From NCBI GenBank assembly GCA_017934525.1, contig JAGBJJ010000063.1, positions 1 through 43,300 of the forward strand: a stretch of DNA of 43,300 nt. Direction: 5' to 3'. The position numbers and the translations under genes are program-made. This DNA comes from Prevotella sp. (GTDB lineage Bacteria > Bacteroidota > Bacteroidia > Bacteroidales > Bacteroidaceae). The notes beneath the pieces are model-generated. The model searched no databases and had not been told where the DNA came from. It worked only from the letters and a program-made list of their open reading frames with translations. Below are positions 6,301-9,847 of the stretch, one piece after another (the stretch's first letter is position 1; every line of letters begins with the position of its first letter).

Positions 6301-6453
6301 CTATGACATGGTGGATACGATGAAGATGAGGTAGGCCACGGCCAGTAGCACCAGTATGGCAAAAATCCAGTTCACCACTTTGCGCCCCTGCTCTTCTTGT
6401 TTCTTCTCGTAAGCTTTCTGCTTAGCGTTCAAATGTTTTTCTTTCTTGCTCAT
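6301..6453 (-). CDS. Small single-pass membrane protein (50 aa), unknown function
   Basis: A 50-residue frame: a highly charged, lysine- and glutamate-rich N-terminal half (MSKKEKHLNAKQKAYEKKQE) and then one strongly hydrophobic helix (about residues 28-47, NWIFAILVLLAVAYLIF). It ends a single base before the earliest possible CYTH start, so the two are probably one transcript. The clean soluble/TM layout and tight spacing support a real gene. I recognise no family. Confidence 0.65.
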   Translation of the reverse strand: MSKKEKHLNAKQKAYEKKQEEQGRKVVNWIFAILVLLAVAYLIFIVSTMS

Positions 6454-6492
6454 AGTGAAAATTATGATTTATAAATTATATATTATGAATTG

Positions 6493-6533
6493 TCGCTTCG
6501 CGATGGGGTATGAGGTAATAACAGGCTCATACC
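6493..6533. repeat. Two small hairpins downstream of prfB
   Basis: TCGC/GCGA at 6493-6503 and an 8-bp stem GGTATGAG (6507-6514) with CTCATACC (6526-6533). They lie 40 bp past the prfB stop. There is no T-run on either side, so they are not typical terminators; processing or mRNA 3'-end stabilisation is possible. Confidence 0.4.
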
Positions 6534-6575: not shown

Positions 6576-7697
6576 TCACTCCTCACTCGCAGAGGAGAAC
6601 TCCATCAGATAGGCTTTGATGAAGCCGTCGATCTTGCCGTTCATTACGGCGTCGACGTCGCTGGTCTGATAGTTGGTGCGATGATCTTTCACGCGCTTAT
6701 CGTCGAAGACGTAGGATCGTATCTGCGAGCCCCACTCAATCTTCTTCTTGCCGGCCTCTATCTTAGCCTGCGCCTCTAAGCGTTTCTTCATGGCACGGTC
6801 GTAGAGCTGGCTCTTCAGCAACTTCATGGCACGCTCTTTGTTCTTGGGCTGGTCGCGCGTCTCGGTATTTTCGATGAGGATTTCCTCTTCCTCGCCCGTG
6901 TCGGGGTCGGTGTACCAGTAGCGCAGGCGCACGCCCGACTCCACCTTGTTCACGTTCTGTCCGCCGGCACCGCTGGAGCGGAAAGTGTCCCACGACAGTT
7001 TGGCCGGGTCAACGTAGACCTCGATAGTGTCGTCGACGAGCGGTGTGACGAAGACCGACGCAAACGACGTCATGCGTTTGCCCTGCGCGTTGTAGGGCGA
7101 GACGCGCACCAGCCGGTGCACGCCGTTCTCGCTTTTCAGGTAGCCGTAGGCATACTCGCCGCCTTCAATCTGCATAGTGACGCTCTTGATGCCGGCGTCG
7201 TCGCCCTCCAGGATGTTGGAGATGGTGACCTTATAGCCATGCGCCTCGGCCCAGCGCATATACATACGCATGAGCATCTGCGCCCAGTCTTGCGCCTCGG
7301 TGCCGCCGGCGCCGCTGTTTATCTTCATCACGCAGTCCATAGGATCCTCCTTCTGTCGCAGCATGTTCATCAGCTCCAGCTGCTCGATGGCCTGCAGAGC
7401 CTGCCCGTAGTCGCGGTCTACCTCATCCTCGGTGACCATCTCGTCCTTGAAGAAGTCGAAGGCCAGCTGCAGCTCGTCGGCCTTCAGCCTGACGTCATTG
7501 TAGCCGTCAATCCATCGTTTGATGCTTTTCACCTTCTTCATCTGCTCCTCAGCCCGTTTGGGATCTTCCCAGAAGTCGGGAGCCTGTGTGCGGAGATCCT
7601 CTTCCTCCCACTCCATTTGCTTCTCGTCAATGCGCAGGTAATGTTTCAGTTTGTCGGCGCGATCGAGTATATCCTTCAGTTGTTCTTGGGTAATCAT
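6576..7697 (-). CDS. prfB: Peptide chain release factor 2
   Basis: A 373-residue class I release factor that recognises UGA/UAA and triggers peptidyl-tRNA hydrolysis. The catalytic GGQ is at residues 245-247 in SSGAGGQNVNKVES. The codon-recognition tripeptide is SPY (200-202) where E. coli RF2 has SPF, within GVHRLVRVSPYNAQGKR. Many bacteria carry a programmed +1 frameshift (CTT TGA C) around codon 25. Here the aligned position reads CTG CGC ATT GAC (Leu21-Arg22-Ile-Asp) in one continuous frame, so that autoregulation is absent. The start at 7697 gives the normal N-terminus. The gene follows the degenerate IVS-type element at 7722-8035. Confidence 0.97.
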   Translation of the reverse strand: MITQEQLKDILDRADKLKHYLRIDEKQMEWEEEDLRTQAPDFWEDPKRAEEQMKKVKSIKRWIDGYNDVRLKADELQLAFDFFKDEMVTEDEVDRDYGQALQAIEQLELMNMLRQKEDPMDCVMKINSGAGGTEAQDWAQMLMRMYMRWAEAHGYKVTISNILEGDDAGIKSVTMQIEGGEYAYGYLKSENGVHRLVRVSPYNAQGKRMTSFASVFVTPLVDDTIEVYVDPAKLSWDTFRSSGAGGQNVNKVESGVRLRYWYTDPDTGEEEEILIENTETRDQPKNKERAMKLLKSQLYDRAMKKRLEAQAKIEAGKKKIEWGSQIRSYVFDDKRVKDHRTNYQTSDVDAVMNGKIDGFIKAYLMEFSSASEE

Positions 7698-7721
7698 GCT
7701 TCTGTAAATGAGAAATGAAAA

Positions 7722-8035
7722 GCGAGAAATGAAAAATTTATATGATGAAGTGAAAAAGTGGAATGAGCCTCCACGCTTGTTTCCATCAACTTAAACTGTC
7801 CTTCCCGCATTATTCATATTCTCCCTTGTCTTTTTGCTATCGTTGTTAAAATACTAATTATCTCTTCGCTATCATGTAGAATGAATCTGCTTGGGCATGT
7901 CACTTTCACCAAAATGCTTGTCAGACAAATATCTATACATCCTGGTAATCCTGGCGGCAAAGAAATCCGACTTACCGACAATGATGTTTTCCCGTGCCAC
8001 AGTCATTTCTTCATATTTTAATTCTCATTTCTCAC
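7722..8035. repeat. Imperfect terminal inverted repeats bounding an IVS-like element
   Basis: The right end (8009-8035) read on the minus strand is GTGAGAAATGAG + AATTAAAATATGAAG. The left end (7722-7750) read on the plus strand is GCGAGAAATGAA + AAATTTATATGATGAAG. The ends are clearly related inverted copies. The right repeat starts on the base next to the fadD stop codon, and further AGAAATGA motifs continue towards the prfB start. They enclose the four-helix-bundle gene remnant. Confidence 0.6.
7814..8006 (-). pseudogene. Four-helix-bundle protein (23S rRNA IVS family), internally deleted
   Basis: An ATG at 8006 opens a 44-codon frame stopping at 7872. It reads MTVARENIIVGKS, then DFFAARITRMYRYLS and a tail ending QIHST. 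This resembles the N-terminus of IVS/S23-type four-helix-bundle proteins (ENIIxxKS, FAxRIxxLYKYL). A shifted frame directly after it reads DSEEIISILTTIAKRQGRI and stops at 7814, the typical C-terminal helix of the same family. The central ~55-60 residues, including the usual RSGTSIGAN segment, are missing and the frame is broken at the joint. I therefore call it a deletion remnant. Intact members are about 120 residues and are relatives of Avd from diversity-generating retroelements. It lies between fadD and prfB and is flanked by inverted repeats. Confidence 0.65.
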
Positions 8036-9847
8036 CTAACTCTCTGCGTACATATTATCAATTTCCTTCTTGTAGTTCTCATTGAGCACGCGGCGCTTGA
8101 TTTTCAGCGTGTTGGTCAGTTCGCCTCGCTCCAGCGAGAATCCGTCAGGCAACAGGGTGAAGCGTTTAATCTGCTCATAGTGGGCCAACTGCTGCTGCAG
8201 GGTGTCGATGCGGTCGCGGAGCATCTGGTTGATCTGCTTGTTCTGACAAAGGTCGCGCCGGCTGTCGAAAGTGATGCCGTGCTCGCGGGCATACTCCTCG
8301 AGCAGGCTGTAGACAGGCACGATGAGCGCCGAGACGAACTTGCGCTGGTCGGCAATGACAGCCACCTGATCGATGTATTTGTCGACGAGCAGCTTCGACT
8401 CAATCATCTGCGGCGCAATATACTTGCCGTTTGACGTCTTGAAGAGATCCTTGATGCGGTCTTTCAGAAAGAGCTCACCGTTTTTCATATAACCCGAGTC
8501 GCCGGTGCGGAAATAGCCGTCGGCAGTGAACGAGTTGCGCGTGATGTCGTCGCGGTTGTAGTAGCCACGGGTGATGGTCGGCCCTTTCAGCAGCACCTCG
8601 CCCTCCTCGCTTATCTTCACGCTGATGCCTTCGATGGGATGCCCCACGCTACCCACAGTGAACGGCTTGCCCAGATGGTCGCACGATACGGTGGCCAGGC
8701 TCTCGGTAAGGCCGTAGCCCACCACCATGTTGAGGCCAATGCTATGCACGAACTCCTCCACATGAGGCGACACCGTGGCGCCTGCCGTGGGGAAGAAGTG
8801 GGCATTCTCCAAGCCCAGCTCCTTGCGCACCAGCGAGAATACGGTCTTATTGAGCGCCTCATACTCCAGGTGGAGCGCCATTGAGGGCCGCTTGCCGTTG
8901 GCCAGACACTCGATATTGTGCTTGCGGCCCACCGCCAGTGCATGACGGAAGAGGCGGCGTTGCAGAGGGCCGCTCGACTCAATTTTTTCCTGCACGCCCA
9001 TGTAGACTTTCTCCCAGAAGCGCGGCACCGACGACATGCATGTGGGATGCGTCTCACGCATCGTCTGCTGCACCTCCTGCGGATAGGTGTTCACAATCAG
9101 CCGTGCGCCCACCGTGATGCACAATATCTTCCAGCCTTTTTCGAAGATATGGGTGAACGGCAGGAAGTTGAGCACGCGGTCTTTGTCCGTCACGGGCACG
9201 CACTTGCCGTTGGCCACGAAGGCAGCGTGATATTGTCCCATACTCAGTATGACGCCCTTCGAGTCGCCCGTGGTGCCGCTGGTGTAGAGAATGTTGGCAA
9301 TATCGTCCATCGAGGCCGACTGCTGCAGAGTCTCCACCTCGCTTTGGCGCGGCAGTCCTTCGCCCAGCTTCAGGAAGTCGTCGAAGTGCATGGCCGTGGT
9401 GTCGCCCTCGGCGATATGCACCATCGGGTCGTAGACGATGATTTTCTGCAGCGAATGGCAGGTGCTGAAGATGCGCCGCGCCTTGTCGTACTGCTCTTGC
9501 TCGCCCACGAAGAGGAACCGAATCTTGGCATCGGTCACGATAAACTGTATCTGCTGCTCGGAGCTGGTGGCATAGAAGGGGATGGTGACGGCCCTAATGC
9601 CCCAAGCACCGAAGTCGGTGTAGAGATACTGCACCGAGTTTTGTGAAAACACGCCGATGTTCTCTTGCACGCCGATGCCCAGATTGAGCATAGCGTTAGA
9701 CGCCTGCTTCACTTTTGCGAGGAACTGATTCCACGATGCCGACTTCCACACTTTGCCGCCGAAGTCTTTGTAAATAAGTGCCTCGCGGTCGCCGAAGTGG
9801 GCTGCCACATCGTAGACGAGTCGCGAAAGATGGCTGTTTATCTGCAT
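8036..9847 (-). CDS. Long-chain fatty-acid--CoA ligase (AMP-binding)
   Basis: A 603-residue ANL-superfamily enzyme that activates fatty acids with ATP to acyl-AMP and then acyl-CoA. The phosphate-binding loop YTSGTTGDSKGV is at about residues 188-199. GYGLTES (A5), YFRTGDSGY (A7) and a KDRIKDLFKTSNGKYIAP segment (A8 hinge with the linker typical of the LACS/FadD15 type) follow. Length fits bacterial FadD15-like proteins. It has a good promoter 31 bp upstream and an AGAGGA sequence before the ATG at 9847, one of the few clear ribosome-binding sites here. The gene is monocistronic or ends at the IVS-like remnant. Confidence 0.93.
   Translation of the reverse strand: MQINSHLSRLVYDVAAHFGDREALIYKDFGGKVWKSASWNQFLAKVKQASNAMLNLGIGVQENIGVFSQNSVQYLYTDFGAWGIRAVTIPFYATSSEQQIQFIVTDAKIRFLFVGEQEQYDKARRIFSTCHSLQKIIVYDPMVHIAEGDTTAMHFDDFLKLGEGLPRQSEVETLQQSASMDDIANILYTSGTTGDSKGVILSMGQYHAAFVANGKCVPVTDKDRVLNFLPFTHIFEKGWKILCITVGARLIVNTYPQEVQQTMRETHPTCMSSVPRFWEKVYMGVQEKIESSGPLQRRLFRHALAVGRKHNIECLANGKRPSMALHLEYEALNKTVFSLVRKELGLENAHFFPTAGATVSPHVEEFVHSIGLNMVVGYGLTESLATVSCDHLGKPFTVGSVGHPIEGISVKISEEGEVLLKGPTITRGYYNRDDITRNSFTADGYFRTGDSGYMKNGELFLKDRIKDLFKTSNGKYIAPQMIESKLLVDKYIDQVAVIADQRKFVSALIVPVYSLLEEYAREHGITFDSRRDLCQNKQINQMLRDRIDTLQQQLAHYEQIKRFTLLPDGFSLERGELTNTLKIKRRVLNENYKKEIDNMYAES

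Follow-up and report, generated by a model that had tools for sequence, protein, structure and literature searches.

A probable decayed copy of an operon-embedded, IVS-like unit between fadD and prfB in a Prevotella genome

Introduction

The intervening sequences (IVS) of bacterial 23S rRNA are closed by a 28-bp terminal stem that RNase III cleaves in vitro, and the Coxiella IVS has a length of 428 nt (accessible text of PMC4990558). Those with an S23p/IVP reading frame, as in Leptospira and Coxiella, share with the units described here the protein family (PF05635), a similar size and complementary ends around the reading frame. Unlike the 23S rRNA IVS, however, the units are located between protein genes at stop codons (fadD-prfB, sdhA-sdhB and others), and their arms are heptad repeats differing unit by unit. 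In a search of nine whole loci against Rfam, no hit was obtained. The intact proteins exceed the curated PF05635 score of 33.8 bits (79 for locus L031, 77.8 for L050, 130.4 for L001 and 138 for L189). Avd of the diversity-generating retroelements is a distant relative: the L001 and L189 proteins, with 28.6 and 35.5 bits, respectively, both stay below the 40-bit cut-off of the bAvd profile, and the L031 and L050 proteins gave no bAvd match.

REPIN/RAYT systems and MITEs resemble the units in being short intergenic inverted-repeat elements with gene-less companions beside a gene-bearing form, and the terminal inverted repeats expected of a MITE or transposon are present in the units and in the gene-less hairpins described below. 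They differ in that the gene of the units is PF05635, not a transposase, and in that the unit arms vary within one genome. Membership in REPIN/RAYT was rejected, given that the Y1 (RAYT) transposase family PF01797 had no match at E 0.001 in the genome under study (101 contigs, 76.5% complete). No enzyme of movement was identified for the units.

Heptameric simple-sequence repeats of cyanobacteria are known as STRR. Together with the GGGAATC, TAACTGA and csR4 repeats they resemble the unit arms in having a period of 7, an intergenic location and, often, an arrangement in inverted pairs. The accessible text of the respective reports describes the Xanthomonas heptamer GGGAATC, with frequent inverted pairs (70 in Xcc, 75 in Xac) and generally not associated with mobile elements (PMC4692102), arrays of TAACTGA (PMC4679880), and repeated motifs of 7-nt period in Nostoc PCC 7120, including csR4 attgcgaattg (PMC2408588); it draws no connection between these heptamers and PF05635 genes. 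The arm of plasmid locus L255, (CAATTCG)n, is the complement of Nostoc csR4. A P. gingivalis MITE carries a 23-nt minisatellite (accessible text of PMC4596501). Heptad repeats linked to PF05635, or such units in protein operons, were not found among the open-literature matches listed, a body of text that leaves subscription papers and bioRxiv largely outside.

Results

A collapsed PF05635 gene in the fadD-prfB gap

The window analysed is a 43,300-nt stretch of a Prevotella sp. contig (JAGBJJ010000063.1, positions 1 to 43,300; assembly GCA_017934525.1). Its 338-nt fadD-prfB gap and the flanking genes comprise the following features, the two gene names being taken from an earlier sequence-only annotation.

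8036..9847, minus strand: fadD-type acyl-CoA synthetase; stop codon at 8036-8038
7709-8034, minus strand: relic unit, a collapsed PF05635 (23S rRNA intervening sequence protein) gene between imperfect inverted arms
8007..8034, minus strand: outer arm, the first in the direction of transcription; AAATGAG-type repeat, separated from the fadD stop codon by 1 nt
7872..8006, minus strand: first part of the relic PF05635 gene, interrupted by a stop after 44 codons; reads MTVARENIIVGKSDFFAARITRMYRYLSDKHFGESDMPKQIHST
7814..7876, minus strand: end of the relic PF05635 gene in a different frame; reads HDSEEIISILTTIAKRQGRI (begins DSEEIISILTTIA)
7709..7736, minus strand: downstream arm, the inverted copy; 11 nt ahead of the prfB start codon
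6576..7697, minus strand: prfB (release factor 2); ATG at 7695-7697

The original prediction for this place was of a four-helix-bundle gene with N- and C-terminal pieces joined out of frame and the centre missing, enclosed by imperfect inverted repeats and abutting the fadD stop codon at its outer end. The description is borne out in each of these respects. The start of the relic gene is 71% identical over 41 residues to the beginning of the intact L105 protein. Its end, read in the second frame, has 14 residues that match the C-terminus of the L106 protein at 93% identity, and relative to L101 and L105 the centre lacks about 170 bp. The two 28-nt arms are 75% complementary at a spacing of 270 nt and head the list of 14 inverted pairs (at least 16 nt, at most 400 nt apart) in the whole window, and their AAATGAG-type motif recurs in intact units at the fadD-prfB gap of relatives. 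The window's fadD ends in MYAES-TAG, one residue beyond the usual end, which in most relatives shown is MY, one residue, then E or D.

The identification of the relic is based on intact copies occupying the identical gap in relatives. That a chance inverted repeat happens to lie beside an unrelated small reading frame would fit the lack of a Pfam or NCBIfam match for the fragments alone, as well as an RNA fold just weakly better than that of shuffled sequences (z -1.75; 5 of 100 as good). A chance origin was nevertheless rejected and is given practically no weight, since intact homologues with like arms are present in that gap in four other genomes. A subthreshold Rfam match at the relic was taken as chance. 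Elsewhere in the window, positions 6449-6500 hold an AT-rich repeat-like stretch (attatgatttataaattatatattatgaatt) between small genes that by eye looks like a decayed arm.

Occupied, decayed and empty gaps in relatives

When 100 genomes of the same genus were searched at the DNA level, 84 gave a match, which in a few was confined to the arm repeat. The stop-to-start distance between fadD and prfB was resolved in 34 genomes, the window's own included and one genome appearing twice. An intact PF05635 gene with complementary arms fills the gap in four (L023, L031, L044 and L050; gaps of 486-553 nt), collapsed relics in two (the window and L024) and a solo arm remnant of 26 nt in one (L035); the relics of the window and of genome G081 retain pieces of the gene. 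Gaps of 0-53 nt without a unit are found in 17 genomes, and 10 have gaps of 76-505 nt without an intact unit. With intact, relic and unit-free gaps side by side, the site exists in occupied, decayed and empty states, and the insertion beside a stop codon envisaged for the window is upheld by this comparison inasmuch as the gap is not uniform among relatives. No target-site duplication was recognised when occupied and empty gaps were compared by eye only. The 505-nt gap of L040 (G085:C81) contains other coding sequence, which resembles DUF4160 and DUF2442 proteins; the gap may therefore be a landing place for unrelated genes as well.

Architecture of the intact units

PF05635 matches (E 1e-5) were found in 215 of 249 same-genus genomes, in 202 of them above the curated score, with a maximum of 14 matches in one genome (10 above the curated score). 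The loci analysed were read mostly from the top of score-ranked lists and are not a random sample. The general unit is about 0.45-0.55 kb in size and consists of a single PF05635 gene within complementary arms of 7-nt, sometimes 8-9-nt, repeats. For the arm score, the 200-nt upstream flank of each gene was aligned to the reverse-complemented downstream flank of equal length. The median score was 53 for 99 gene hits, as compared to 17.5 for permuted partners; a score of at least 36 was reached by 70 of the 99 (66 of 95 after removing four loci counted twice), by 148 of 990 permuted pairs and by none of 86 control genes from the same stretches. The permuted scores are inflated, given that arms share motifs within subfamilies. 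Intact homologues thus carry the complementary ends that had been conjectured for stand-alone genes of this family.

The main set comprises 119 units, to which arm-score cut-offs of 30 or 36 were applied, units below being left out of arm-based counts; at a score of 30, arms are absent from 26 of the 119 genes. One unit is from Campylobacteraceae (L137, no arms) and one from a Ruminococcaceae MAG (L138, score 31), the remainder being from same-genus genomes or from Prevotella, Prevotellaceae or Bacteroidales contigs. Among 80 left arms the dominant period is 7 in 49, 8 in 15 and 9 in 11, and 33 have a self-match of at least 75%, a level that none of 1600 shuffles attained. The arm motifs, which include AAATGAG, TAATTAG, GGAGTTAA, GTCGTTTAG, AGTTGACA and AAGGTTAT, vary from unit to unit but agree between the two arms of a given unit. 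Several motifs occur even within the single sdhA-sdhB site (20 units). The median match of an arm to its own partner is 35 at sdhA-sdhB, as opposed to 18 across genomes, and 67 as opposed to 41 at fadD-prfB, but the own partner ranks uniquely first in only 6 of 20 and 9 of 30 cases, respectively.

Placement at stop codons

In the main set, 85 armed units could be scored, 84 of them Prevotella-type and one from Ruminococcaceae, and each has a co-directional gene upstream. Because many units are related, those of the fadD-prfB set in particular, counts are also given without them: at a score of at least 30 all 36 prfB-linked and all 49 other units read in the direction of the gene before them, and 35 and 47, respectively, in the direction of both neighbours, edge or far cases having been dropped (3 of 39 prfB-linked, 5 of 54 others). 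Control genes are co-directional in 35 of 43 cases. Measured from the outer arm edge, the stop codon of the gene upstream falls between -15 and +40 nt in 72 of the 85 units (31 of 36 prfB-linked, 41 of 49 others) and inside the arm in 36 (14 and 22, respectively); the next gene begins a median of 8 nt (prfB-linked) or 13 nt (others) past the far arm. Outside the prfB set, 24 PF05635 genes are armless, of which 19 were scorable, and all 19 follow a co-directional gene, showing sense placement not to be tied to detectable arms. The expectation that such units settle beside stop codons therefore holds for the Prevotella set, but it is not strict elsewhere, three of 17 armed units from Bacteroidota at large being antisense to their neighbours.

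Stop codons in all three frames occur within 40 nt in 74% of 162 arms read inward, compared to 30% outward and 36% after shuffling. The difference persists for left arms without the prfB-linked set (24 of 42 inward, 8 of 42 outward) and for non-prfB left arms thinned by protein similarity (22 of 33 inward, 7 of 33 outward; sign test, 20 versus 3). In L133 and L134 the arm codes for a fadD extension ending in MYEEENSN, where relatives end in MYEE, and arm-coded ends of prfB read ..NSK (L097, L124) or ..MENVEC (L099, L100, L112). The prfB stop TAG of L120, L121, L128 and L135 is in register with AATTAG repeats; for these four no extension is claimed, because the armless L108 has a similar prfB C-terminus (..EEN). 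The role of the arms in providing stops is well supported in Prevotella. Evidence for it beyond Prevotella is weaker, and there the role is not universal.

Sites, relocation and descent

Neighbour sites were assigned by tblastx. The 119 units occupy 53 sites, which by itself is weak evidence of movement because the units are of mixed subfamilies. Two sites, fadD-prfB with 31 units and sdhA-sdhB with 20, account for 51 of the 119. Among pairs of at least 80% protein identity with full flanks, 97 of 102 are at a common site, so that most copies look vertically kept. The five discordant pairs are three among L084, L092 and L146, one between L151 and L153, and one between the neighbouring copies L177 and L182. 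The L084, L092 and L146 proteins are 84-87% identical at different sites, and the DNA similarity of L084 to L092 extends about 35 nt upstream of the gene and 13 nt downstream of it. In loci L096-L136, 41 in number, there are 44 PF05635 genes, of which 32 are arranged fadD-unit-prfB, 9 lie just after prfB (three as second genes in the same locus) and 3 are elsewhere or on short contigs. In a tree of 40 proteins, placement after prfB needs two changes, both forced by well-supported branches in a tree whose bootstrap has not settled. Arm type tracks the protein clade (a 16-row AATGA-type clade has support of 98/98), not the side of prfB.

The units thus appear to stay long at one site and to relocate now and then, at least two relocations being forced by the phylogeny. 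Of the original notion that units travel, the two forced changes at prfB speak in its favour and the 97 of 102 close pairs at a common site against it, the evidence for travel being indirect. A resident operon gene, inherited vertically and immobile, with hairpin flanks serving as attenuators or mRNA stabilisers and with genome differences reflecting losses only, would account for the concentration of units at two sites, for the sense placement of armless genes and for the purifying selection on the PF05635 protein (median dN/dS 0.075 in 11 usable pairs, dS 0.05 to 1.5). We nonetheless consider it improbable in view of the tree changes at prfB, the close relatives L084, L092 and L146 at different sites and the many empty fadD-prfB gaps, to which are added the gene-less hairpins at further stop codons and the units built alike on plasmids from several phyla, as detailed below.

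Two more specific forms of movement were rejected. Recent copy-and-paste within genomes is at odds with the about 70-75% DNA identity of copies alignable by BLAST (29 loci, five genomes); the exception is one duplicated locus of genome G117 at 99.5%. A move of the GTCGTTTAG-arm group between two sites was dismissed since all four loci are at sdhA-sdhB, the apparently differing flank genes being antisense shadow ORFs. As regards the G117 duplication, L160 and L164 (G117:C1, around 2442691 and 2460911) each show a PF05635 gene with short complementary repeats in a stretch duplicated at 99.5% (579 nt compared), and by eye the gene sits within an apparent Y1/REP-type transposase frame that is absent from the ORF list.

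Gene-less hairpins

Of 32 segments examined past fadD or prfB stops, 14 with heptad-type hairpins were carried forward, 12 of them scoring at least 36, L102 scoring 34 and L103 scoring 28. These hairpins are 151-220 nt long, have heptad-type arms and lie on the opposite side of prfB from the intact unit. One of the 14 (L122) clearly keeps the end of the gene, and L125 and L113 do so marginally; in L110, L111 and L115 the similarity is to arm-side sequence past the gene, as it is in L124 at a level just above shuffles. For the remaining seven, gene-trace similarity is not above shuffles. The idea that gene-less hairpins keep both gene ends was accordingly rejected. In the window's own genome, 11 of 14 other arm-similar loci were examined. 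Seven are AATGA-type hairpins, each at most 20 nt away from the stop codon of a neighbouring gene that points towards it; a paired arm was not found in the other four. The comparison of the relic with a non-autonomous derivative, as originally drawn, is in keeping with the occurrence of same-type hairpins at stop codons; these may descend from gene-bearing units, and a clear piece of the gene is present in only one of 14.

These observations bear on the possibility that the arms are an independent, REPIN- or MITE-like repeat family, moved by some other transposase, and that PF05635 genes were merely captured. The gene-less hairpins scattered through the window's genome, the missing gene trace in most of the 14 tested and the G117 unit sitting inside another duplicated stretch are all as such a family would have it. 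Against this, the arm motif tracks the PF05635 clade, the association of arms with PF05635 spans phyla, and the 76.5% complete genome of the window lacks a match to the Y1-type (RAYT) transposase; we regard the proposal as doubtful.

Further inverted repeats were noted in three loci. In L055 (G065:C25:2000-3000) the end of fadD is formed by an arm-like repeat (ggagttatcgggagttaacgggagttag), whose inverted copy lies in the gene-less gap of 126 nt; this hairpin apparently supplies the fadD stop codon. In L101 and L123 a different inverted repeat, of CCTCCCC...GGGGAGG type with arms of about 40 nt, follows prfB.

Bacteroidota at large and plasmids

Among 50 further Bacteroidota loci, 9 have an arm score of at least 36 and 17 of at least 30 (permuted, 3 and 8 of 500). 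Thirteen of the 17 armed units are in sense with both neighbours, one with one neighbour and three antisense to both, from which it follows that the placement rule is strict in Prevotella only. In 13 of 14 scorable units the distance of the start from the upstream stop is between -15 and +40 nt. Three-frame stops occur inward in 4 of 17 and outward in 1 of 17. The flanks match themselves at lag 7 with 0.503 and 0.480, as compared to 0.336 in the control, and show harmonics at 14 and 21.

Plasmid loci were chosen at 22 places from matches in 33 and 25 records; 19 are cyanobacterial, the others being from Treponema, Bernardetia and Chlorohelix. An arm score of at least 36 is found in 18 of 22 (permuted, 25 of 462), L254 not being heptad-like, and the lag-7 match is 0.754 and 0.699, against 0.37-0.46 at lags that are not multiples of 7. 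At least one oppositely directed neighbour is present for 8 of the 22 units, and 5 are placed antisense. Three-frame stops are seen inward in 7 of the 18 armed units and outward in 3, while 4 have no inward stop in any frame.

Pairing of the arms

If the units were IVS in the strict sense, acting on mRNA, the arm stem would form in the operon transcript, RNase III would excise the unit, the cistrons would be translated apart, and selection would keep the stem. The 23S rRNA precedent with its stem cleaved in vitro lends itself to this interpretation, as do the sense placement of all 85 scorable armed units in the main set and the RNA fold of L031, which has a stem of about 65 bp (z -9.9). The pattern of arm mismatches is difficult to reconcile with it: over 66 units, those compatible with G:U pairing are fewer than those of A:C type (51 versus 82, p 0.009), and selection on a sense-RNA stem was rejected on this ground as the cause of arm matching. 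Considering in addition the weak fold of the window relic and the antisense units among Bacteroidota and on plasmids, we hold the strict mRNA version to be unlikely, if less so than an immobile gene or a captured one.

Discussion

Based on the collective evidence, the window feature is best understood as the decayed remains of a selfish, IVS-like unit embedded in an operon, whose arms serve as the ends in movement and are copied onto each other at the DNA level. To this reading as a whole we assign a probability of roughly two in three. In an intact unit, two inverted arms of short-period, mostly 7-nt repeats enclose a single PF05635 four-helix-bundle gene, and the arms may pair over about 30-65 bp in the operon mRNA or as extruded DNA. 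They would be the ends recognised when the unit moves, and the four-helix protein, a distant relative of Avd, could help the unit to copy or insert itself. Little harm to the host is expected, as the unit is lodged between cistrons and comes with a stop of its own: with inward stops usual in all three frames in the Prevotella set, translation still ends where a unit has inserted at the extreme 3' end of a gene, in some loci with a few residues added. The arms would be kept alike by DNA-level copying from one to the other and not by selection on RNA pairing, a suggestion to which the excess of A:C over G:U-compatible mismatches points.

A broader proposition, to which we would give somewhat less than even odds, is that intergenic heptameric repeats are largely the ends and remnants of one selfish class built around PF05635 and distributed across phyla. 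Arms out of phase with the codon would act, in Prevotella at least, as all-frame stop cassettes that permit insertion without frame fusion, and the two arms would copy each other. Were this true, an explanation could be offered for heptamer repeats between bacterial genes, whose period is not divisible by three, and the IVS, hitherto a curiosity of rRNA, would become a component of messenger operons. The unit is also a simple system for asking how about 500 bp without a transposase spread, and it also suits the question of how inverted arms stay alike during sequence turnover.

The proposition would also give the annotation "four helix bundle protein" a natural home across Bacteroidota and cyanobacterial plasmids. 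As a separate observation on the plasmids, the PF05635 genes of six loci from cyanobacteria and Chlorohelix (L258, L198, L187, L195, L197 and L253) lie within defence or CRISPR gene sets, their neighbours being DISARM drmD/MmeI, DUF1156/Swt1, cas6/cas4 (twice) and cas2/cas1 (twice, antisense).
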